Source of the DNA: Tenacibaculum singaporense
GTDB lineage: Bacteria; Bacteroidota; Bacteroidia; Flavobacteriales; Flavobacteriaceae
Direction of reading: 5' to 3'
Length of the DNA: 64,000 nt
Assembly (NCBI RefSeq): GCF_003867015.1
Contig: NZ_CP032548.1
Span: 1,059,001-1,123,000 of the forward strand
The notes under the pieces were generated by a model. It had not been told where the DNA came from and did no database searches. It saw only the letters and a program-made list of their open reading frames with translations. A program made the position numbers and the translations under genes. This document shows, piece after piece, positions 6,365-52,329 of the stretch (its first letter is position 1; each line of letters opens with the position of its first letter).

Positions 6365-7054
6365 TTAAAATTCTGTGATTTCTTCTCCTATTTTTAAGCC
6401 GAACTTTTTTCTAAACCAATATACAACAACATACAAAACAGGGGTGTCTAGTGCTGCAATAATGACTTTGAATAAAAAACCGCTAAGTAAAAGGCTACCA
6501 AAAATACTCCAAGGAAGTATTTTAAAAGAACTCAATAAAAATAATACGGTAAAAGTATCTATAAATTGTGACAAAAAGGTAGAAAAATTATTACGAAGCC
6601 ATAAATGTTTTCCTTTAGTTAATCTTTTCCAAAAATGAAAAATACGAATGTCTATAAATTGAGCAGCTAAGTAAGCTAACATAGAAGCTAATACCGCTAA
6701 AGGAGAAAGACCAAAAACTTTGGTAAAGATTTTATTATCAATAGGAGAGCTGTCAATTGCAGGAGCATAATCAGCTACTAAAATAATTAACATAGAAAAA
6801 AAGGAAGCAAAAATTCCTGCTACGACAACTCTATTCGCTTTTTTCTTACCATAAATTTCAGAAAGAATATCTGTAATTAAAAAAGTAATAGGATACGGAA
6901 GTATTCCAACAGATACTTCAAAACGAAATAAATTAAAGGGTTCCCAATAAAAAAACTTCTGAAAAATAAGGTTTGAAGTTACAAGAGAGGCTATAAATAA
7001 CGAAGCTAAAACTAGATAAATAAGTTGTGCTTGAGATTTTTGTTGTACAGTCAT
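6365..7054 (-). CDS. yhhQ: Queuosine precursor transporter, YhhQ/DUF165 family
   Basis: 229 residues, about six transmembrane helices. The motif FPYPITFLITDILSEIYGKKKANRVV is represented here as LPYPITFLITDILSEIYGKK, the signature of the vitamin-uptake/queuosine-precursor (preQ0/preQ1) transporters. It imports the 7-deazaguanine precursor used for tRNA queuosine. It is the promoter-proximal gene of the minus-strand set 7054-2739 and is transcribed away from fabD. Confidence 0.85.
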   Translation of the reverse strand: MTVQQKSQAQLIYLVLASLFIASLVTSNLIFQKFFYWEPFNLFRFEVSVGILPYPITFLITDILSEIYGKKKANRVVVAGIFASFFSMLIILVADYAPAIDSSPIDNKIFTKVFGLSPLAVLASMLAYLAAQFIDIRIFHFWKRLTKGKHLWLRNNFSTFLSQFIDTFTVLFLLSSFKILPWSIFGSLLLSGFLFKVIIAALDTPVLYVVVYWFRKKFGLKIGEEITEF

Positions 7055-40979: not shown

Positions 40980-42062
40980 TTACTCTACAACTCTAACAGC
41001 ATTGTTGCTTGGATCAGCAACGTATAGTTTATTAGAAACATTGTTATAATTCAATTTATAAGGACCTTTAAATTGTGCTGTAGAAGCACCTCCATTTACA
41101 AAACCATAGCCGTTACCGATTACAGTTGTTACTTCTAGAGTACGCATATTAATAGCCCTAATTCCATAATTACCACCAAGAGAGCCTATATATAAAAAGG
41201 TTTCATGAGGGCTAAAAGTTAAGCTTTTTGCCGATGTAAAACGTGCAGCCTCACCAACACCATTGGTTGTACCACTTTCGGTGTCAGAACCTGCTATAAT
41301 AGTAGCATTGTTTGTTTGTAAGTTTATTTTTAATATGGTTCGCCAATTTGCAACATATAGATGTTCATCTTTACTATCTATCACAATTCCTTGAGGGTAA
41401 AAAGTTGTTGGTAAATTCGTTAAGTTTAAAGTAGATACTTGTTTGTTTGCTATATTAATTTTTCTAATTCTTCCTGTACTAACAATTCCATTTTCACTTT
41501 CCAGAACATATAAAACAGTTCCATTGGTGTTTGTTATAATATGAGAAGGATGCTTAAATTGAGCATTTTCACCTATCCCATCTGTACTTCCATAACTACC
41601 GTTACCAGCAATAGTACTTACTTCTTTGGTATTTATATTTATAGCTCTAATTTTAATTTGAGTAGCTACATATAATGTTTTGTAGTCTTTGCTAAAGGTT
41701 AAAGTTAGCGGACTTTGAAAAGAAGCGGTTGTACCCACACCGTCATTACTATTTGATGAACCATCTCCTGCAATTGTTGTTATATGGTAGTTTCCACTAG
41801 TATTGATAGTGATTTTTTTGATGCTGTTATCACCAGTATCAGCTACATAAATGTCACCATTTTGATCTACTACAACATCTGAAGGGAATGAGAATGCAGA
41901 TAAGGCCACCAAATCGGGTTGTGAGCCAATACTAGTTACATTTCCTTTTAAAATATCATCTATAATTTCTGCTGGACTTTTAATTATAGAAGAATCATCA
42001 CTACAAGAAATTAGTTGTAGCGCTATGTACATTAATAATATTCCTTTTTTTAATAATTTCAT
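40980..42062 (-). CDS. NHL/beta-propeller repeat lipoprotein
   Basis: 360 residues. Signal with lipobox LISCS (acylated Cys about residue 20). The mature protein is a series of NHL-type beta-propeller repeats, for example FSFPSDVVVDQNGDIYVADTGDNSIKKI and FKGPYKLNYNNVSNKLYVADPSNNAVRVVE, plus several SVTIAGNGSYGSTDGIGENAQFKHPS-like units. It is probably a surface-exposed binding protein; no catalytic residues are seen. Its signal peptide is nearly the same as that of the cadherin-LRR lipoprotein gene 3 kb away. Confidence 0.85.
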   Translation of the reverse strand: MKLLKKGILLMYIALQLISCSDDSSIIKSPAEIIDDILKGNVTSIGSQPDLVALSAFSFPSDVVVDQNGDIYVADTGDNSIKKITINTSGNYHITTIAGDGSSNSNDGVGTTASFQSPLTLTFSKDYKTLYVATQIKIRAININTKEVSTIAGNGSYGSTDGIGENAQFKHPSHIITNTNGTVLYVLESENGIVSTGRIRKINIANKQVSTLNLTNLPTTFYPQGIVIDSKDEHLYVANWRTILKINLQTNNATIIAGSDTESGTTNGVGEAARFTSAKSLTFSPHETFLYIGSLGGNYGIRAINMRTLEVTTVIGNGYGFVNGGASTAQFKGPYKLNYNNVSNKLYVADPSNNAVRVVE

Positions 42063-42120: not shown

Positions 42121-43248
42121 CTATTTTTTAGTACCTATGTTTTTTCGTTTGTCTATCTCAGAAGCCGTTTTATTGAAAAAAATTACTAACTCTTTCATAA
42201 AACTCTCTAATGTTGGATACCTGTCTCTATTGTTATCATATCTTTCTAGTTCTTTGACTAACTCATGAGTCCATAAAAAACCGTTATTTAACTGTTCATT
42301 CAATTCCTTTTTGATTGTTTTTTTATCAAAGTTATGGTCCTTCATATATTTAATAACAGTCGCTCTAACCAAAGCTTCATCATACATAGTTTTCCAATTA
42401 CTATATGCTTGTTTATTCATTTCATCTTTAACATTATCAAAGATGATTGTTCCACTTTCTTGTAGTTCAGAGTGGTGTTTTTCTATAACATGATTTACAA
42501 AGGAATGATTGAATTCATGTAAAATAGTTGGGAAATAATCTTTCATTTCATATTTGGGTATACCTAAGTTATCAACACTCCACGTTCCCATTATGGCATA
42601 GACCACTTCATTTCCATTCGGATAAATTATTTTTGGACCATAGCTTGCTCCTCCATTTCCCAAGGCATTTATAATTTTAAATTCTCCTTTTGGGTCTTCT
42701 CCATAAAATTTTTGATACCATTCTAGGTCTAAATTTTGATAAACTTTTTTAAATCTATTTGATGCAGCTTTGTAGAGTTCTTTATTGTTATTAAAAAAAG
42801 TTTCACAGTCGGCATCAGTATAAAATTCATTTAACAGTTTTAAAAACTGTGTAGAGTTTTTTTTAGTCCACGATTTCTCAAGTGATTTATTTGAAAAAGG
42901 CACTATCAAAGCTTTTATATTTGGAGGTTCAGTTATATGTATAGCCATACTCATAACTGAACTAAAACCAATTCCTTTTTCATGTAATTCACTTTTTACA
43001 TACTTAATTAAATCGTGATTTTTAAATTTCTCAAAATGATTTTGAATGTTTTCAACATACTTAGGAAAAAGATTTTGACTGTATTCATGGTTATCTGCAA
43101 GCCTAAAAACAATGCTTAATAACTCTATGCGTTTATCTACTTTTGGTTCTTTTAGTATTGTTTCTTTTTGTTCGCTTACTTTTTTTCTATCTTGAGAACA
43201 AGCGCTTAAAGTGATTAAAATCAGGAATATTCCTATTATTTGTTTCAT
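42121..43248 (-). CDS. Lipoprotein with zinc-peptidase-like HExxH (DUF4932-like)
   Basis: 375 residues with lipobox LSACS (Cys17). The C-terminal half contains HEFNH (His244, Glu245, His248) in FPTILHEFNHSFVNHVIEKH, followed by a region resembling DUF4932, a predicted metallopeptidase family of Bacteroidota. I infer a surface peptidase; activity is not proven. It lies 58 bp upstream of the NHL gene and carries no visible LytTR operator of its own. Confidence 0.78.
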   Translation of the reverse strand: MKQIIGIFLILITLSACSQDRKKVSEQKETILKEPKVDKRIELLSIVFRLADNHEYSQNLFPKYVENIQNHFEKFKNHDLIKYVKSELHEKGIGFSSVMSMAIHITEPPNIKALIVPFSNKSLEKSWTKKNSTQFLKLLNEFYTDADCETFFNNNKELYKAASNRFKKVYQNLDLEWYQKFYGEDPKGEFKIINALGNGGASYGPKIIYPNGNEVVYAIMGTWSVDNLGIPKYEMKDYFPTILHEFNHSFVNHVIEKHHSELQESGTIIFDNVKDEMNKQAYSNWKTMYDEALVRATVIKYMKDHNFDKKTIKKELNEQLNNGFLWTHELVKELERYDNNRDRYPTLESFMKELVIFFNKTASEIDKRKNIGTKK

Positions 43249-43361
43249 TTAATAGATCTTTTTGGACTATTTCTAATGGCACACAATTTCTTATGAAGGC
43301 CATTAAAAGTTATTTGATAAACAGCAGGTAGAAATTATAAAGAAGCTTAGGTGCTGTAAAA

Positions 43362-43391
43362 AAGGTCAAAACAAGTGTATGTTTTGACCTT
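43362..43391 (-). terminator. Terminator after the cadherin-LRR lipoprotein gene
   Basis: AAGGTCAAAACA / TGTTTTGACCTT stem with a 6-base loop, followed on the minus strand by TTTTT. Confidence 0.82.
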
Positions 43392-43409
43392 CTTCTAATA
43401 GCATGATTT

Positions 43410-45203
43410 TTAAGGGCAAGAAGTATTATAGCTAGCAGTACTATCTTTTGTCCAAGTGCTTGGTGGGGTAAAACCAGTATCTATTTTTATACAAGTTAAA
43501 TCTGGATTAGATGATGCATCCATATAAGTCATATTAGTATTGTTGCCATTAGCTACATTTAAACTTGTTAAGTTATTATTAAAAGCTATAAAACTCTCTA
43601 AATTTATATTGTTACTTAAATCAATGCTAGATAAGTTATTAATATGGACTTGTAATTGTCTTAATTTTACAAGTTTACTCACATCTAAACTTGAGAGTTT
43701 GTTTCTATTAATGTTGAAGTCTTTAATTTCAGTTAAACTACCCAAATTTATTGAAGTAATTTGATTTTCACTACAGAATAAATTAATTAAAGAAGAATTA
43801 TTTTGTAGGTTTAAACTACTTAATTTGTTATTTGTAATATATAATCCTTCCAGTAAAATATTTTGAGTAAGATCTATATTTGAGAGATTGTTGTAAGAAC
43901 ATCTTAGGGTTTCTAGTTTTATATTTTTAGAAACGTCAAGAGAGGTTAATTGATTATTATAAATATTTATGATTTTTAGTTTAGTATTATTACTTAAATT
44001 TATATTAGAAATTTGATTTGAAGCTAGTAATAATGCATTTAAATTAATAAATTCCTCAATACCCGTTACATCAGAAATATTTTTATTATTTGCCTTAAGA
44101 GTTCCTGTAAAGTTATTAGCTTCAGTTACTTGTATTTCGTTATCTCCATTCGTATTTATAGCAGTATTTGCTACTAAAACTGCTTTAAAGTTAGCGTCTG
44201 GTATGTTTACAACGTTGCCTCCGGTTTCAACTACATCAGAAACATTAATTCGTATTTGTTTATCTACATTGTGTACACCATCAGAAATTCTTATTGTTAA
44301 AATGTGATACGTAGAGGTTTCGTAATCTAAACTTTTACCTGTAATTAATGATATTTTACCATTATTGGCATCAATTTCAAATAAGTTTCCTGTTGTGCTC
44401 AACCCTGGCAAACTATAACTAATGTTGTCGCCTTCTGCATCAGTAGCTTGTATTTGCCCAATAATTAAGGTATCATTAATATCTTCAGGAACGCCAAAGG
44501 GACCAAATGCAGTAAAAGTAGGTGCAACATCGTTTATATTCGTTACATTTATAGTAACAGTAGCGTTGTCTGAACTACCATTACTGTCACTTACTTTTAT
44601 ATTTAATGTATGCGTAGTATTATTTTCATAATCTAATGTTTTACCAGATGCAAGTCGTAATTCTCCTGTATTGCTAAGAACAAATAAATTAGTAGCATCT
44701 CCACTTTCTATTGAAAAACTTGATAGATCACCATCAGTATCGTTAATCGCCAACGTTCCTATCAAATCTGCATCTGTAATATCTTCAGAAACAGTAAAAC
44801 TTTGATCGTTAATGGTAATAGGACTATTTTCGTTTACATCGGTAACGTTAATGGTTATTACTGCTGAGGTTTTGTCTTTACCATCACTTACTTCAACCGT
44901 AATTTCGTGTTTGGTCTGGGTTTCATAGTCTAAACTTTTGTTAGCAGCAATGCTTAATTCTCCAGCAACATTAACAGCAAACAGATTGTTGTCGTTTTTT
45001 GTGACTTTAAAAGTTAGGTCGTCTTTATTAACATCGGTAGCAGTAATAACTCCTATTTTGGTGTTGGCAGCTTTGTCTTCTGCTACCGTAAAACTTTGTG
45101 CTTTAATAACAGGAGGTGTGTTTTGTGGTTCGTCGTCTTTACTACAAGAAATTAGTTGTAGTGCAATAAAGCCTAGTAATATTCCTTTTTTAAATAATTT
45201 CAT
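43410..45203 (-). CDS. Cadherin-like and leucine-rich-repeat lipoprotein
   Basis: 597 residues. Lipobox LISCS at Cys20. Three cadherin-type repeats follow (about residues 33-120, 130-225, 232-320), each with the pattern AxxFTVxED...DxDGDLSSF...LDYE...H.L.I.VSDG. Then comes a BspA-type leucine-rich repeat domain (about 340-570: LNALLLASNQISNINLSNN, LETLRCSYNNLSNIDL and so on), and a cysteine-containing end PDLTCIKIDTG...YNTSCP. Such proteins act in surface adhesion. A LytTR-type operator and -7 box lie just upstream. Confidence 0.9.
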   Translation of the reverse strand: MKLFKKGILLGFIALQLISCSKDDEPQNTPPVIKAQSFTVAEDKAANTKIGVITATDVNKDDLTFKVTKNDNNLFAVNVAGELSIAANKSLDYETQTKHEITVEVSDGKDKTSAVITINVTDVNENSPITINDQSFTVSEDITDADLIGTLAINDTDGDLSSFSIESGDATNLFVLSNTGELRLASGKTLDYENNTTHTLNIKVSDSNGSSDNATVTINVTNINDVAPTFTAFGPFGVPEDINDTLIIGQIQATDAEGDNISYSLPGLSTTGNLFEIDANNGKISLITGKSLDYETSTYHILTIRISDGVHNVDKQIRINVSDVVETGGNVVNIPDANFKAVLVANTAINTNGDNEIQVTEANNFTGTLKANNKNISDVTGIEEFINLNALLLASNQISNINLSNNTKLKIINIYNNQLTSLDVSKNIKLETLRCSYNNLSNIDLTQNILLEGLYITNNKLSSLNLQNNSSLINLFCSENQITSINLGSLTEIKDFNINRNKLSSLDVSKLVKLRQLQVHINNLSSIDLSNNINLESFIAFNNNLTSLNVANGNNTNMTYMDASSNPDLTCIKIDTGFTPPSTWTKDSTASYNTSCP

Positions 45204-45228: not shown

Positions 45229-45236
45229 CAAGAGTA
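45229..45236 (-). promoter_or_regulatory. -7 box (TACTCTTG) of the cadherin-LRR gene
   Basis: Read on the minus strand, one mismatch to TAnnTTTG. It lies 28 bp downstream of the tandem LytTR-type sites at 45265-45293. Confidence 0.6.
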
Positions 45237-45264: not shown

Positions 45265-45293
45265 GTTTACGAAGAGTAAATTGAGTTTGTAAA
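45265..45293 (-). promoter_or_regulatory. LytTR-type tandem operator A
   Basis: Half-sites GTTTACGAA (45265) and GTTTGTAAA (45285), 20 bp apart centre to centre. The half-site order is given as read on the plus strand. The same arrangement occurs at 48478 and 52268, and in part at 45895. Confidence 0.72.
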
Positions 45294-45324
45294 TTGAAAA
45301 TGTAAATTCAAGATAAACCATGAA

Positions 45325-45354
45325 CCCCCTAAAAATCAATTAAATTTTAGGGGG
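45325..45354 (-). terminator. Hairpin after the 151-residue exported-protein gene
   Basis: CCCCCTAAAA / TTTTAGGGGG stem with a 10-base loop, 23 bp after the stop at 45377. It lacks a good T-run, so termination strength is uncertain. Confidence 0.65.
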
Positions 45355-45376
45355 CATGTTTTATGAAAGACGATTA

Positions 45377-45832
45377 CTAATTTGCTATTTCTACAATAAA
45401 CTCTTTAATTTTTTTCTGAGACATTGCCTTTACCTTTGTGCTATTTTTACTGTAAAAATTACTGTATGCAAAGTTAGTCCAATCTGCATCTTGCTTATTG
45501 GCTGCCATTACCATAACAAAACTTTCTTTATCATATGAAATTAAAAAAAGACCAATATTATTATAAAAAACTGGCCTGTTCAGCTCTTTACTTTCTGCTT
45601 CTTGATATTTGTAAATTGCAGGGATACATTTTTTACAAGCAGCTACGGCTACTGTTTTTGTAGTACCTAATAAGCTATATTGAAAAAACTTAGTTTTGGT
45701 TTGCTTATTTCCAACAGTTCTTTCTCCTTCAAGTAAATGATAAAGACCATTAATATTTTTAGTAGGTACTTCATTTTGAGCATAGACTGTAAAAGGTAAT
45801 ATAAATACGAAAATATATTTAAAAATTTTCAT
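45377..45832 (-). CDS. Small exported protein, function unknown
   Basis: 151 residues with a cleavable signal peptide (MKIFKYIFVFILPFTVYAQ). A CKKC motif (AVAACKKCIPAIYK) could bind metal or form a disulfide. No known domain. It has its own promoter with the shared operator core upstream (45895-45914) and lies between the two lipoprotein clusters of the island. Confidence 0.72.
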   Translation of the reverse strand: MKIFKYIFVFILPFTVYAQNEVPTKNINGLYHLLEGERTVGNKQTKTKFFQYSLLGTTKTVAVAACKKCIPAIYKYQEAESKELNRPVFYNNIGLFLISYDKESFVMVMAANKQDADWTNFAYSNFYSKNSTKVKAMSQKKIKEFIVEIAN

Positions 45833-45857
45833 TTGTCTTTTTTTATAATCAATAATA

Positions 45858-45865
45858 TAAGAGTA
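45858..45865 (-). promoter_or_regulatory. -7 box (TACTCTTA) of the 151-residue protein gene
   Basis: A two-mismatch relative of TAnnTTTG in the same sequence context as the one at 45229, 29 bp downstream of operator B. Confidence 0.5.
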
Positions 45866-45894
45866 CTTTTAATATATAGTTTTATAAAAAACGT

Positions 45895-45923
45895 TTTTAC
45901 GAAGAGTAAATTGAAATAGTTTG
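45895..45923 (-). promoter_or_regulatory. LytTR-type operator B (second half-site degenerate)
   Basis: TTTTACGAA at 45895, then the 18-base core shared with operator A (TTTACGAAGAGTAAATTG). The second half-site is not at +20 but a GTTTGTTAT lies 4 bp further. It may bind more weakly or use another register. Confidence 0.55.
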
Positions 45924-45946
45924 TTATGACGCTATATTTGTTGTAT

Positions 45947-45985
45947 AAAATACCTCAATATTAATTTATAACGTTGAGGTATTTT
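45947..45985 (-). terminator. Hairpin after the 182-residue lipoprotein gene
   Basis: AAAATACCTCAA / TTGAGGTATTTT stem with a 15-base loop just beyond the stop at 45999. Confidence 0.75.
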
Positions 45986-45998
45986 GCAGTTGGTTTTA

Positions 45999-46547
45999 TT
46001 AAGGGGCGTCGTAATTTAGAATTGGTATACTTCCTTTGTAGTACCCTATAACATTGGTTCCGTTTTTATCTACTAAGGTAATTGTAATGGTGTATTCGTT
46101 GGTATTAGAAGTAACAGTAATACTTCCTGATTTTATATCAATATTACCTGTTTGATTATCTCCTAAAGAAGCATCAAAGCCTATAAAGTGAAATCCTTTT
46201 TCAATAATAAAACTACTATTGCTTTGGTTGTTAACAGTATAGGTCCCTTCGGTTAACTTTGTTTGTTCATCAGCATTAATTTGAAAGGCTAAAATATCCC
46301 CACTGCCTTGTGGATCTTCACTAGCATCAATAGTAAGTCCTGAGCTAGAGAGATATAGTGTAAAATAGGTAATATCATTATGTGTTCCTTTTTTAATAAG
46401 TACTGAGTTTTTAATTTCAAAACTTTTTGCTCCTATTTTAATTTCATTTAATTTTTTAGGAATAGTATCATCGTCACTATTACAAGCGGTAAAAAAGAAT
46501 GTACTTAGTGTAAGTAAGATTACACTGAAAATTTTGAATAGTTTCAT
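45999..46547 (-). CDS. Lipoprotein of unknown function
   Basis: 182 residues, lipobox FTACN (Cys22), then a beta-rich mature domain with no motif I know. It starts 25 bp after the 334-residue gene ends, in the same direction, so the three genes 48414-45999 look like one operon driven by operator C. Confidence 0.72.
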   Translation of the reverse strand: MKLFKIFSVILLTLSTFFFTACNSDDDTIPKKLNEIKIGAKSFEIKNSVLIKKGTHNDITYFTLYLSSSGLTIDASEDPQGSGDILAFQINADEQTKLTEGTYTVNNQSNSSFIIEKGFHFIGFDASLGDNQTGNIDIKSGSITVTSNTNEYTITITLVDKNGTNVIGYYKGSIPILNYDAP

Positions 46548-46572
46548 AAAAAATATTTGTTGTTAATTGTTT

Positions 46573-47577
46573 TTATTTAATTGTTACACTAGCATTGCAT
46601 CCGCTATTGGCACTGTAGCAATGAGATTTGTTAGAAGAGTTAGGATTGAAATTGTAGTAATAATTTTTAGTACATGGTACTTTTATTGAATTAGCATGAC
46701 CAACTCTACTACCATTTCTTGAACCTTCTTCAAAAACATAAATATCTTTACCTGTTCGGTTTATAATAGTAACAATAGTTGACGCTTTTTCTTCATCTAT
46801 AGAGGCTACAAATGCTTGGTATTCTTTAAGTCTTTTATATTCTGGAGTAGCTTTAACTGAATCGTTGTAACGTTTTATTTCATCAGCATCCATTTTTTTT
46901 GCTTTTTTAATAGCTTCTATTTTAGCATTGTCTTTTGCTGTTAAAGGAATTGCTTGTTTTAGCTTCATAGCAGCGATATAATCATTAAACTTTTTATCAA
47001 GGTTTAAAGAAGTAAGGTATTTGTAAGTAGGTGAAGAAGGTACTGATGAGTTTCTGGCTGATTTAATTTTAGCTTTCATTCGAGATAGAAAACCTCCTTT
47101 TTTCTTTTTTGGGGCTTTAGTTGTAGCTTTTCTGTCTTTTTCAAGCACATAAACCGAAGCTACATTTTCCATACTAGGAAAACTTCCGTCGTATATTTTA
47201 TCTAACCGGAATAGTAAATCATCAATTACCACATAGCCTTCTTTTGTGTACCTATGTTTTATACTAATAGGATGGATGTAGTTATCTATTGTGCCATAAT
47301 CGCTTAATTCAGTTTCACGAAAAGCACGCTTATCTTCACTGATAAATCTAGCTTCAAAACCAACAGGAATACCCGATGGGGTGCGCTCTAATTCAATTTT
47401 AACAGGGAGATAATCTGTTTTAAAATTATAAGTTCCATCGCCTTTAGCTACCAAAGCACCAAAACCATGATAGGTAGCTCCATCACCATTATTTTCTAAG
47501 GCTTCAAAAAGATTTTGTTGTGCTTGTATTGTTATTGCTAACAAAGTTAATACACTTAGTAAGAATATTTTTTTCAT
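46573..47577 (-). CDS. Exported protein of unknown function
   Basis: 334 residues with a Sec signal peptide (MKKIFLLSVLTLLAITIQAQ). The middle part is strongly basic (KDRKATTKAPKKKKGGFLSRMKAKIKSARNS), and the C-terminus holds three cysteines (VPCTKNYYYNF...SHCYSANSGCN). There is no recognised domain. It starts 3 bp after the 277-residue lipoprotein stops. Confidence 0.72.
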   Translation of the reverse strand: MKKIFLLSVLTLLAITIQAQQNLFEALENNGDGATYHGFGALVAKGDGTYNFKTDYLPVKIELERTPSGIPVGFEARFISEDKRAFRETELSDYGTIDNYIHPISIKHRYTKEGYVVIDDLLFRLDKIYDGSFPSMENVASVYVLEKDRKATTKAPKKKKGGFLSRMKAKIKSARNSSVPSSPTYKYLTSLNLDKKFNDYIAAMKLKQAIPLTAKDNAKIEAIKKAKKMDADEIKRYNDSVKATPEYKRLKEYQAFVASIDEEKASTIVTIINRTGKDIYVFEEGSRNGSRVGHANSIKVPCTKNYYYNFNPNSSNKSHCYSANSGCNASVTIK

Positions 47578-47580
47578 CTA

Positions 47581-48414
47581 TTATTTTATTATATTGATTT
47601 TCTGATAAGGACTGTATCTTAATTCACCTGTTGTAAAACCTTTTAATCTTAAAAAGTAATTCCCTGTACTTGGAATATAGGTTGAAAAATTTGAAGTAAT
47701 AAAAGAGTATGCCCAAGTGTTTCCTGATAAGAAACGAGTAGTAGAAACTTCTCCTAATTTATTTAAACTTAAATCATATATTTCCATACTTATAGTCAAG
47801 TTGTTGGCAATAGCAGAAGCTGCGGATGATCCAAAGTGAAAATCGAATCTTTGACGAGTAGGTAAGTCTAATTCAGTTAAAATTGTAGCACTTGAAATTC
47901 TATCATTTAGGAAAAAGAAGTGATATAAAAAATCATCTTCATCTCCATCAACCATAATATAAGGTCTGTTAGGTGAAGTAGGAGGTATGCTTATTTCTAA
48001 TTCTGTGTTACTTTCTTTTTCTACAATAAAAGCTTTGTAAATGTCTGTTTTAGCTTTAAAATGTTCTTTTATAAAATTTAAGACATTGATATTTGCATTA
48101 GTGTCATCAACTTTTGAAAATTCTAGAGGTAATGTATATTCTTGTTTTAATACATCTCCTTTAATTTTTATTTCATAATTGTAATCACTATTATATCCCT
48201 CAACCGAAACTTCTGGAACCCAAAAATTATTAATTACATCTCCTAAATCATAAATGAAATAGGTGTCTTTGAAGTTAGCAAACGTTTTTGTGAAATAGGC
48301 TTTTGTGATACTTTTGTTTTTAGGAGTATCAACTACATTGTCATCATTATTTCCACATGATATTAATTGTAGTCCAATCATTAAAATAAATAATCTTTCT
48401 TTTAAACTTTTCAT
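47581..48414 (-). CDS. Lipoprotein of unknown function
   Basis: 277 residues, lipobox LISCG with Cys21 and a signal sequence (GLQLISC) akin to the two other island lipoproteins. The mature part is beta-rich, ending in a short YSPYQKINIIK. No known domain. It is the first gene of a three-gene operon and is preceded by LytTR-type operator C. Confidence 0.72.
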   Translation of the reverse strand: MKSLKERLFILMIGLQLISCGNNDDNVVDTPKNKSITKAYFTKTFANFKDTYFIYDLGDVINNFWVPEVSVEGYNSDYNYEIKIKGDVLKQEYTLPLEFSKVDDTNANINVLNFIKEHFKAKTDIYKAFIVEKESNTELEISIPPTSPNRPYIMVDGDEDDFLYHFFFLNDRISSATILTELDLPTRQRFDFHFGSSAASAIANNLTISMEIYDLSLNKLGEVSTTRFLSGNTWAYSFITSNFSTYIPSTGNYFLRLKGFTTGELRYSPYQKINIIK

Positions 48415-48440
48415 TTTTACTATTTTTAGTATTTGATATG

Positions 48441-48448
48441 CAATAGTA
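48441..48448 (-). promoter_or_regulatory. -7 box (TACTATTG) of the three-gene operon
   Basis: One mismatch to TAnnTTTG on the minus strand, 29 bp downstream of operator C. Confidence 0.6.
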
Positions 48449-48477
48449 GTTGTAAAGGGTTATTTTGTAAGAAAATG

Positions 48478-48506
48478 TTTTGTGAACAGTAAAAAGAGTT
48501 TATGAA
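48478..48506 (-). promoter_or_regulatory. LytTR-type tandem operator C
   Basis: Half-sites TTTTGTGAA (48478) and GTTTATGAA (48498), exactly 20 bp apart. 19 of 24 bases match operator A over the central segment. Confidence 0.72.
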
Positions 48507-48541
48507 TAGTTTTTTGCAAGCAAATAAAAAGCGATGTTAAT

Positions 48542-51499
48542 TTAGAATAAATACTTAAAAGGCATGGTTACAATTACTCTTGTGCCATTAGGATTGTTGT
48601 TTTTATAAATATCTTCAATAACAAAACCTATTTTAGTAACATATTGTTTTTGAAAAATTTCTAAACGTTTTTTTATGGAGTTTAAAGCAAAAGATTCATG
48701 ACGGTTTCCTTGGCGGAGATTAATTTCTTTACTTTTCTTTCTTCCAATACCGTTATCAGTAATAATACATTGTAAGGTGTTTTCTGATAGATTGAAGGTG
48801 ATGTCTAGTTTTTTTTCTCCTTCTTTATGTAGTAAACCATGTACTAAAGCATTTTCAATAAAAGGTTGAATTAGTAAAGAAGGAACCTCCAATTCTTCAT
48901 GAGCATCGTAGGTAATTGTATAGGTGAAATCATCACCAAAACGAAGTTTTTCTAGTTGTAGATATACATTTAAAAACTCTAACTCTTTTTCTATAGGAAT
49001 AAAATCTTGATTTGTATAGCTTAAGGTGCTTCGTATAAGTTTAGCAAATAATACAATATAGTCGTAGGAAGCATCAGTATCTTGTTGTAATACCAAATCT
49101 TGAATAGAATTTAACGCATTAAAAATAAAATGCGGATTCATTTGTGAACGCAAAGCAGTTAAATTAATAGCGATCAGTTCTTTTTCTAAAGATATCTTTT
49201 CAAGTTGGGCAATGCGCTCTTTTTCCTTTTTTAGCATTGCTTGTTTAAAGTATAAAATAGTAGCTCCTAAAATAAGAGAAACAATTAATAAGATAAACCA
49301 TAACGTTTTCCAAAATGGTTTTTTAATAAAAAAGTGTAGCTCTTTTATTTCATAGTTAGTACTTGTACTATTTAAAAATGGGTGTACTTGAAAGGTGTAT
49401 TCACCCGCGGGTAAACTATTGTATTTTATTGAGTTTTCACCAATAGCTGTAGTTAACCAAGCATCGTTATATCCTTTTAAACGATATTTATACGTTCCTT
49501 TTTGGTTAAACAAAAAACCATTAACATTAAAATTTATTCTTATTGCGTTTTGATTATACCTTAAGGTATAATTTGAAGTAATTAGGGTGTCTTTTTCATT
49601 AATTTCTACAGCACTAAAATATACTTTAGGATGTAATGTTTTAAAAGCATTGTTTTTATCAATGGAAAATAACCCTTTGTCAGATGAGAAATAGATTTTG
49701 TTACCAATTATTTCAATACCAGAAATATTGTATGATTTAATACCATCTCGTTTGGTGAGTGTTTTAAATTTATGAGTGAGAATATCGAGCTTTTGAATAC
49801 TGTTTACACCTACAATCCATAGCTTATTTTGGTCGGCTTTAATTTTTTCAATAATATTTGAGGTCAAGCCATTTTGTGTGGTATAATGTCTAATTACCTT
49901 GCCATTTTTAATTCCTAAAAGGCCATTTTTAAATGTGGCAACCCAAACAATACCATTAGCGGTTTGAGTTATAGATTTACTATAGATGGGTTTTTTATTG
50001 TTTACAATTATCTGTTTGTTCCAAAGGCTGTCATATACAGCTAATTCGTCGACAAATGAAACATAAACTTGATGTTTTATTTTGTCATAAAAAGAATCGT
50101 AAGTTCTTTTATTTGTTGAAATAAATTTTTCTTTACCGTGGTAATTAGCGTTTTTTAATAAAACAACTTTGTTATGGTTGGTGTAAAGTAAATCGTTGTG
50201 AGCTAAGAATGAAAAACTTTTTGCAGCATCAAAAAATCTAGTTTTTTCAAGGGTTAAATTTCTATAATCTAAAATATAATTTCTAAATCCTTTACTAAGG
50301 TAAATTTTTTGCTGATTAGGATTATACTTTAGTTTAGATAATTTTCCTTCGTTAACAGGTAAATTAATAGTTTTAGAAGTATGAGAATTGATGTTATAAA
50401 AAATAACATTTCCACGGTTGCTTCCCATAACTAAGGTACTATCGTTTATTTTGTCTAATGTTTTTATATTTTCCTCTTTTAGAGGAATATTACAGGTTTC
50501 TATATGAATATTTGGAATAATATAAACACCATTATTTAAACTAGTAAGCCAATAATTATTGTCTTTATCTCTAATGATTTTGGTAATGTGTTTGTCTGTT
50601 AAAAATCTTTTTTTTAGTTGAAAAGCAGCGTTTTTGAAAGTAAAAACCCATACTCCTTGATTTGTTGCTATCCAAGTTTCATCGTTATGCTCAAAAATAG
50701 TATAGAGCTTTATTTTTTCAAGAGGCTCTAGCCCTTTTACAAGTTCTAACTTTTTTTGTGGGAAGTTTAATTTATAAAAGCTGTTTTTTTTGTTTCTTAT
50801 TTGAGAGTATATATAAATTGAATCCGTTTTAAAGATAATAGACTTTCCCAAACTTATAGCGTTACCTTTTTTTCCTATATGAGGAAGTTTAGTTTCTATT
50901 ATAGAAGTTATCCTGTTGTCTTTGTTTATTGAAATAATAGAATCGATGGCTCCTGAATAAATAGTATTGTTAAAAGAAAACGGAGTTCCAAAACTTTTTG
51001 TAGTAGTATGTTGTTGTATTATTTGTTTGGTTTTTAAATCTATTTTGTAGATCGTTTTTACAGTAAAAACCCATAAAAAATCATTTCGTATTACAAAATC
51101 ACCCAGTTCACCATTTAAATAATCACTTAAGTCTTTAAATAAATGTAGCTTATCGTTTTGGATATAGAAAAACTGACCAGAAATATTATTGCACCAAATC
51201 CGTCCTAAGTTATCTTCTTGAGTATTAAATACAGAAGCTCCGCGTTGTAAAGGATTACTATAGTTTTTAAAGGTTTTACCATCATATCTATACAGTCCTT
51301 TGTTTGCACATAGCCATATAAAACCTTTACGATCTTCATGAATGTTATAGAATTCATTATCGGGAAGTTTATTTTTTTCAGATAATTGTATAAATACAGG
51401 GTCTTGTGCTTTTGTTGCTATTGAAGCACAAAGAATAAGTAATAAAAGAGAATACTTTATTAAAAGAAACGATGGTTTATGACTAGATACTATTTTCAA
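48542..51499 (-). CDS. Propeller-type sensor histidine kinase (LytS-like output)
   Basis: 985 residues. A signal peptide (about residues 12-31) leads to a long periplasmic part built of two-component-regulator propeller repeats (for example NIHEDRKGFIWLCANKGLYRYDG) and a Y_Y_Y domain (about 640-720). One transmembrane helix (about 731-751) is followed by a His_kinase domain with NPHFIFNALN (His790) and a HATPase domain (N box IENALVHG, DNGIGR). This is the architecture of polysaccharide- or ligand-sensing one-membrane kinases that pair with LytTR regulators. Its start overlaps the regulator gene by 17 bp. Confidence 0.93.
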   Translation of the reverse strand: MKIVSSHKPSFLLIKYSLLLLILCASIATKAQDPVFIQLSEKNKLPDNEFYNIHEDRKGFIWLCANKGLYRYDGKTFKNYSNPLQRGASVFNTQEDNLGRIWCNNISGQFFYIQNDKLHLFKDLSDYLNGELGDFVIRNDFLWVFTVKTIYKIDLKTKQIIQQHTTTKSFGTPFSFNNTIYSGAIDSIISINKDNRITSIIETKLPHIGKKGNAISLGKSIIFKTDSIYIYSQIRNKKNSFYKLNFPQKKLELVKGLEPLEKIKLYTIFEHNDETWIATNQGVWVFTFKNAAFQLKKRFLTDKHITKIIRDKDNNYWLTSLNNGVYIIPNIHIETCNIPLKEENIKTLDKINDSTLVMGSNRGNVIFYNINSHTSKTINLPVNEGKLSKLKYNPNQQKIYLSKGFRNYILDYRNLTLEKTRFFDAAKSFSFLAHNDLLYTNHNKVVLLKNANYHGKEKFISTNKRTYDSFYDKIKHQVYVSFVDELAVYDSLWNKQIIVNNKKPIYSKSITQTANGIVWVATFKNGLLGIKNGKVIRHYTTQNGLTSNIIEKIKADQNKLWIVGVNSIQKLDILTHKFKTLTKRDGIKSYNISGIEIIGNKIYFSSDKGLFSIDKNNAFKTLHPKVYFSAVEINEKDTLITSNYTLRYNQNAIRINFNVNGFLFNQKGTYKYRLKGYNDAWLTTAIGENSIKYNSLPAGEYTFQVHPFLNSTSTNYEIKELHFFIKKPFWKTLWFILLIVSLILGATILYFKQAMLKKEKERIAQLEKISLEKELIAINLTALRSQMNPHFIFNALNSIQDLVLQQDTDASYDYIVLFAKLIRSTLSYTNQDFIPIEKELEFLNVYLQLEKLRFGDDFTYTITYDAHEELEVPSLLIQPFIENALVHGLLHKEGEKKLDITFNLSENTLQCIITDNGIGRKKSKEINLRQGNRHESFALNSIKKRLEIFQKQYVTKIGFVIEDIYKNNNPNGTRVIVTMPFKYLF

Positions 51500-52226
51500 A
51501 GCTACTTATTCTTGATCTAGAAATTTTTGCTGTAATAGTTCCATTATCTAGAGTGAGGTTTAAAGTTGTTTTGTTTAAAAACTCAATATAAGTTAAATTA
51601 ACAATCCACGCTCTATGAGAACGGAAGAAAGAAGGCTCCTCAGACAGTGTGTTTTCGAAAAATTTTAAATTTTTACTAGCGATAATAGTTGCTTTATTCA
51701 CAACGTGTATTTTACTATAAGCTCCGTCAGCTTCAATAGCAACAATGTCTGTTAAATTGAGAATGTGCCTATTCCCTAATTCAGGAATAACAATTTTTTT
51801 GTAGTTTTTATCTTTTATGGTTTTAAGTAGGGAGTGATAATCAACTAATGAAGCTTGTTGGTGTAGCTTATGCTCTAGTTTTTTAAGAGCTATATCTAGT
51901 TTATTTCTGTCAATAGGTTTTACTAAATAATCAATAGCATTTAACTCAAAAGCTTTAATGGCATAGTGATCATATGCAGTAACAAAGATAATTTCAAATG
52001 ATATAACATCAAAAAACCTTGCGATTTCATAGCCTGCATAATTAGGCATCTGTACATCTAAAAACACCACATCGGGCTGTTGTTCTTTTATTTTTTGAAC
52101 ACCAGACTCTAAGTTATTACAAGAATCAAGAACATTAATATTGGTAGATGCTCTTTCTAGTAAATTAGATAAAACATTTCTCGCACTTTGTTCATCATCA
52201 ATAAGGATTGCTTTGATTTCATCCAT
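51483..52226 (-). CDS. LytTR-family response regulator
   Basis: 247 residues: receiver domain with phospho-acceptor Asp57 in VFLDVQMP, and a C-terminal LytTR DNA-binding domain (about 142-247, with the HRAWIVNLTYIEF signature). It should bind paired repeats about two helical turns apart, which is what the tandem operators A, C and D show. One operator lies in front of this gene, so it probably regulates itself. The predicted start of transcription lies almost on the ATG, so the message may be nearly leaderless. Confidence 0.94.
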   Translation of the reverse strand: MDEIKAILIDDEQSARNVLSNLLERASTNINVLDSCNNLESGVQKIKEQQPDVVFLDVQMPNYAGYEIARFFDVISFEIIFVTAYDHYAIKAFELNAIDYLVKPIDRNKLDIALKKLEHKLHQQASLVDYHSLLKTIKDKNYKKIVIPELGNRHILNLTDIVAIEADGAYSKIHVVNKATIIASKNLKFFENTLSEEPSFFRSHRAWIVNLTYIEFLNKTTLNLTLDNGTITAKISRSRISSFENSI

Positions 52227-52231
52227 AAAAA

Positions 52232-52239
52232 CAAATATA
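52232..52239 (-). promoter_or_regulatory. -7 box TATATTTG of the LytTR-kinase operon
   Basis: Perfect TAnnTTTG match on the minus strand, 28 bp downstream of operator D and only 5 bp before the regulator ATG. Confidence 0.7.
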
Positions 52240-52267
52240 GGGATAGTGTTTTATAAAGTTATTAAGA

Positions 52268-52296
52268 TTTTACGAAAGGAAAATTGCGTTTATGAG
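52268..52296 (-). promoter_or_regulatory. LytTR-type tandem operator D
   Basis: Half-sites TTTTACGAA (52268) and GTTTATGAG (52288), 20 bp apart. It lies upstream of the regulator's own gene. Confidence 0.72.
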
Positions 52297-52329
52297 AAAG
52301 AATTAAACAAGAAAGAAGAGGGTTGGTAA

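Follow-up and report, generated by a model that had tools for sequence, protein, structure and literature searches.

Direct repeats recur ahead of several genes around a LytTR response regulator and its sensor kinase in Tenacibaculum singaporense, and the question arises whether they are operators of that regulator and which genes would be controlled through them. The window, that is, the whole 64-kb stretch of DNA that was analyzed, contains the following features, listed in the direction of transcription.

52268–52296, minus strand: operator O1, CTCATAAAC-GCAATTTTCCT-TTCGTAAAA on the minus strand, preceding the response-regulator gene; profile score 23.1, rank 2 in the window
52232–52239, minus strand: -7 box of the regulator promoter, TATATTTG, 5 nt before the ATG; predicted leaderless mRNA
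51483–52226, minus strand: LytTR response regulator, 247 aa, with Response_reg and LytTR domains
48542–51499, minus strand: sensor histidine kinase, 985 aa, with signal/TM, Reg_prop propeller, Y_Y_Y, TM at about 730 and His_kinase
48478–48506, minus strand: operator O2, TTCATAAAC-TCTTTTTACTG-TTCACAAAA; profile score 21.0, rank 3 in the window
48441–48448, minus strand: -7 box of O2, TACTATTG, 29 bp after O2 and 26 nt before the ATG
47581–48414, minus strand: lipoprotein, 277 aa; loci L053 and L054 have members of this family behind operators
46573–47577, minus strand: secreted protein, 334 aa; no other target family is shared as widely
45999–46547, minus strand: lipoprotein, 182 aa, last gene of the O2 unit; among the compared loci, in this genome only
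45947–45985, minus strand: inverted repeat with 17-nt arms, probable terminator separating the O2 unit from the promoter that follows
45895–45927, minus strand: degenerate operator O3', with intact proximal half-site and spacer; distal half-site shifted 4 bp (ATTT)
45858–45865, minus strand: -7 box of O3', TACTCTTA, 29 bp after O3'
45377–45832, minus strand: secreted protein, 151 aa, from a conserved family of targets with 48–86% identity in four other loci
45325–45354, minus strand: inverted repeat CCCCCTAAAA..TTTTAGGGGG, probable terminator ahead of the O4 promoter
45265–45293, minus strand: operator O4, the best site, TTTACAAAC-TCAATTTACTC-TTCGTAAAC; profile score 31.2, rank 1 in the window
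45229–45236, minus strand: -7 box of O4, TACTCTTG, 28 bp after O4 and 25 nt before the ATG
43410–45203, minus strand: surface lipoprotein, 597 aa, with cadherin repeats and internalin-like LRR
43359–43394, minus strand: inverted repeat with 15-nt arms, probable terminator after the O4 unit

Repeat elements and transcription units in the window

Three intact 29-bp direct-repeat elements with a 9-11-9 layout and a period of 20 are present in the window. Their half-sites are GTTTACGAA/GTTTGTAAA at 45265/45285, TTTTGTGAA/GTTTATGAA at 48478/48498 and TTTTACGAA/GTTTATGAG at 52268/52288, each pair 20 bp apart, in agreement with the coordinates and spacing given in a first-pass annotation of this DNA. 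That annotation had counted four elements, each with a -7 box 28–29 bp away on the minus strand. The gaps are indeed 28 bp (45265), 29 bp (45895), 29 bp (48478) and 28 bp (52268), all on the minus strand. The element at 45895, the second half-site of which the annotation already gave as out of register, is a degenerate copy with a 4-bp insert. Its proximal half-site and spacer have a profile score of 17.1, compared to 17.8 at 45265; the whole site scores 1.2 ungapped and 20.9 when the ATTT insert is skipped. The accurate count is three intact operators and one relic or weak site.

The profile was built out of sample from 42 operators in 12 loci of other genomes, with the window and its nearest relative left out. 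It ranks the three intact sites first to third in the 64-kb window, at the scores listed above, and the next site scores 5.8; the maximum in 20 Markov sequences of the same size was 16.0. With one locus left out at a time, each of the 42 operators (12 loci) ranked first within its own locus. The scores of O1 and O2 (23 and 21) are below those of most operators of relatives. The three intact sites are also the only matches in the window with 0–1 mismatch to the degenerate pattern. They are not due to chance.

A search of the genome for the motif, suggested at the time of the first annotation, had a divided outcome. With at most one mismatch, the whole 3.51-Mb genome yielded four matches, namely the three intact sites and one elsewhere. 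The latter, G000:1159868, was rejected as a further operator, as it lies inside the open reading frame of a DPP-IV-type peptidase. With three mismatches, a loose IUPAC pattern gave 8 matches in the window vs. 7.1 expected, and 403 in the whole genome vs. 428 in a reversed control. This pattern is at chance level genome-wide and was therefore excluded from target calls; weaker distant targets are possible. The peptidase coding stretch (TTTACAAAAGCAAATTCTTCTTCRTAAA), which is conserved in many genomes of the genus, mimics the operator and produces false matches in motif scans.

The regulator has the receiver with a phospho-acceptor Asp (Response_reg, 76 bits) and the C-terminal LytTR domain (57.6 bits; cut-off 22.6) that define a LytTR response regulator, and residues D10, D11, D57, T83 and K103 are invariant across 14 orthologues. 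The kinase carries the NPHFIFN and ENALVHG/DNGIG motifs, with H, N and G1 boxes intact. The kinase and regulator genes have 17 bp in common, so the kinase would be controlled through the promoter at 52268, if this is the promoter of the operon.

Sigma-70 and terminator scans are uninformative for the phylum, and inverted repeats were used in their place; these are probable terminators separating the units. The one at 43359–43394 argues for placing 42121–43248 outside the O4 unit. Both 42121–43248 and 40980–42062 were rejected as targets because they have no operator ahead of them and lie beyond this probable terminator. The NHL-repeat lipoprotein encoded at 40980–42062, with no operator upstream, has a signal peptide nearly that of the cadherin/LRR lipoprotein (MKLLKKGILLMYIALQLISC / MKLFKKGILLGFIALQLISC). 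The 334-aa and 151-aa secreted families recur behind the operator across genera. Neither had a match in Pfam or NCBIfam, and structure models (pLDDT 79 and 67, respectively) gave no significant fold match. In the 334-aa family the stretch KRYNDS(I/V)(K/R)ATP is conserved, and the C-terminal part forms a beta domain.

Promoter geometry and the sign of regulation

Of 49 operators, 43 are followed after 28–29 bp by a -7 box (TANNTTTG within 1 mismatch), the box by which Bacteroidota primary-sigma promoters are defined, and 19 by a TTG, as in the -33 element, after 4 bp. The operator is wholly upstream of the -33 region and overlaps neither the -7 box nor the start. The site said to lie ahead of the response-regulator gene is there, and it is found likewise in orthologous loci: the position of O1 is matched in 13 loci, the window included, and across these it ends 28 bp ahead of the -7 box.

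The regulator promoter differs from those of the targets. From the box to the ATG there are 4–5 nt in 13/13 regulator loci, and 18–35 nt in those targets that have a clear start. The distance from box to start site in F. johnsoniae, the source of the -7 consensus, is also 4–5 nt (PMC6847099), and because the two gaps are equal, the regulator mRNA is predicted to be leaderless in every orthologue. Leaderless transcripts make up 5.5% of the mRNAs of F. psychrophilum (PMC9723704). A perfect -7 box is present in 12/14 regulator promoters vs. 3/34 target promoters; at -8, 14/14 vs. 12/34 have the usual T, a contrast between regulator promoters orthologous to one another and a mixed target set, the sequences being non-independent. 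The degraded -7 boxes of the targets suggest that these depend on an activator, and the regulator would be expressed basally.

The regulator encoded at 51483–52226 very probably binds the elements as operators and activates its own gene, the kinase gene and the adjacent genes for surface and exported proteins. In the proposed mechanism, the periplasm-facing propeller/Y_Y_Y kinase would phosphorylate the regulator at D57. The direct repeat TTCAYAAAS-YCAAWTTGCYA-TTCATAAA would then be occupied by two LytTR domains, two turns apart on one face of the DNA. Because the operator ends 28–29 bp before the first -7 base, the bound regulator would adjoin the -33 region on its upstream side and would activate RNA polymerase from there. 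O1 would serve the regulator's own gene and the kinase, and the neighboring genes for surface and exported proteins would be controlled through O2, O4 and perhaps O3', the degenerate copy. With its consensus -7 box and predicted leaderless mRNA, the regulator could be made at a low basal level, and the targets, most of which have non-consensus -7 boxes, should need the activator.

It is conceivable that the same regulator represses from the same sites until the kinase signal releases it. The evidence for the binding sites favors neither sign, and many response regulators repress their own genes. Repression is nevertheless unlikely, given that the operator never lies over the -7 box or start, that the target -7 boxes are degraded, like those of activator-dependent promoters, and that characterized LytTR repeats in this position activate; those of S. 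mutans lie just upstream of -35 and mediate positive autoregulation (PMC6193735).

Occurrence of the operator with the regulator

Orthologous LytTR loci with the same operator are present in Polaribacter, Tenacibaculum, Lutibacter, Lacinutrix and Aquimarina. In these loci the operator lies 41–43 bp ahead of the regulator ATG and also ahead of one to four secreted or lipoprotein genes. Regulator orthologues were found in 7/98 genomes of the genus, leaving 91 without one at the cut-off used, and in 4/397 genomes sampled from the family, its own genome included. A tighter operator pattern, with at most one mismatch, matched all 7 carriers in the genus and 1/91 non-carriers (Fisher p 6e-10). The non-carrier match, in G090, was rejected as an operator; it overlaps an open reading frame on the opposite strand, and no gene lies downstream in the right direction.

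These results bear on the idea that the element belongs to another factor, either a different LytTR protein or a general promoter element, and stands before the regulator by coincidence. The genome encodes 22 LytTR domains, and LytTR half-sites are AT-rich and alike. A profile scan of the other 19 LytTR regulator loci of this genome (1.5 kb on each side) found no operator, the best score being 11.4, and a search for analogous repeats at the same 19 loci gave a few weak candidates only. The element is confined to genomes with this regulator clade and precedes the regulator at a constant position in 13 loci, which makes another factor improbable. Since there are so many LytTR domains in the genome, yet the operator tracks this clade only, it appears to be specific to the clade rather than to LytTR proteins in general. 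Least probable is that recent promoter duplication, and not selection for operators, has given rise to the sites: 45265 and 45895 do have a near-identical 18–19-base core in common, and L059 has two near-identical tandem copies ahead of duplicated genes, but O1, O2 and O4 precede unrelated genes with differing flanks, and across genera the element is kept and the flanking sequence is not.

Control by the LytTR regulator of its own gene, the kinase and the exported genes, as first proposed, is thus the reading supported by four predictions of a shared operator: the element is conserved with the regulator, has a fixed promoter geometry, is absent without the regulator, and is local. In the more distant orthologous loci L072–L074 (about 50% identity), a direct repeat is kept in the same place with a period of 21 and other letters (CGATGATTTGGGAAA occurs twice as the repeat in L072), and the -7 box is again 4–5 nt before the ATG. 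Changed letters at a kept place are as expected from co-evolution of regulator and operator. Scans of L061, L062 and L072–L074 with the repeat of their own regulator revealed no clear second copy, and when 65 LytTR genes of still greater divergence were analyzed together for direct repeats, no common repeat emerged at a fixed place.

Mobility, cargo and relation to known systems

With L059 (G118), which belongs to another genus, the regulator-kinase DNA shares 89.6% identity, compared to 77.7% for the rpoB region; this indicates that the regulator-kinase block has been transferred horizontally. The likeness to L059 ends at 52309, just upstream of the regulator promoter, and between the two, identity is about 75% for the linked target genes. 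In a genome of the same genus, rpoB is 89.3% identical but the regulator-kinase block only 69.0%.

In relatives, the operators stand ahead of genes for homologues of the two small secreted proteins (334 and 151 aa) and for large proteins of the internalin-like LRR, lectin-like or beta-helix kind. The large proteins carry type IX sorting domains of type A or B, and a PorP/SprF gene follows in some; TIGR04183/TIGR04131 are above cut-off in five targets of L053, L056, L065 and L069. No type IX sorting domain was found in the window target 43410–45203, a lipoprotein. Internalin-like LRR proteins and surface proteins of type IX secretion make up most of the cargo. We tentatively picture a plug-in surface-display cassette of marine flavobacteria, a reading slightly more likely to be wrong than right, in which the kinase-regulator block would move from genus to genus, any gene with the 29-bp operator at a fixed distance from a weak -7 box would join the regulon, a consensus -7 box and a leaderless mRNA would keep the regulator primed, and internalin-like/T9SS cargo would be freely exchanged.

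Propeller and Y_Y_Y sensors are familiar from the hybrid two-component systems of gut Bacteroides, in which they and the kinase are fused to AraC, and paired direct repeats are known for AgrA of Staphylococcus aureus. The sensor architecture found here (Reg_prop, Y_Y_Y, His_kinase) resembles that of the hybrids; however, kinase and regulator are here encoded by separate genes and do not form one chain, the output is a LytTR protein, and the targets are not polysaccharide-utilization genes. AgrA is likewise a protein with a receiver and a LytTR DNA-binding domain (PMC4227749), but its half-site and signal differ, and it has none of the T9SS/LRR cargo.

The operators of studied LytTR proteins consist of 9–11 nt repeats with 11–13 nt spacers (PMC4847170), and the 9-11-9 layout at the three sites and in the orthologous loci falls within this definition; the element would accordingly belong to an already known kind of LytTR direct-repeat operator. 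YpdA/YpdB of E. coli, a LytS-type kinase with a LytTR regulator (PMC4847170), is similar in having direct repeats of ~10 bp, a spacer of the 11-nt class, and TTCAT in the half-site. The YpdB repeat is GGCATTTCAT, in contrast to TTCAYAAA here, and here control of the regulator itself and of a linked surface-protein cassette from Bacteroidota -33/-7 promoters is predicted. HdrRM/BrsRM of Streptococcus mutans share the 9-bp direct repeats, 11–12 bp apart and upstream of the promoter, as well as autoregulation and linked targets (PMC6193735). In those systems a membrane inhibitor protein replaces the histidine kinase, whereas the partner here is a His_kinase with H, N and G1 boxes, and the receiver has the conserved D57.

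In the library of papers searched, no description of a LytTR operator from Bacteroidota turned up. The present loci, about 14 in number, provide a predicted operator whose position, cognate regulator and cargo are known, together with a testable rule, that the operator ends 28–29 bp before the -7 box. They may also offer a clean case of regulator-operator co-evolution combined with horizontal transfer, with surface LRR and T9SS cargo. The less expected features are the predicted leaderless regulator mRNA, the split in -7 box strength and the apparently mobile LRR/T9SS cargo. Two more operators, at 6629 and 12341 of L154 (contig 136 of genome G004), lie ahead of large type IX-type proteins, so that the putative regulon of G004 extends beyond the contig of its regulator, probably as a result of an assembly break.
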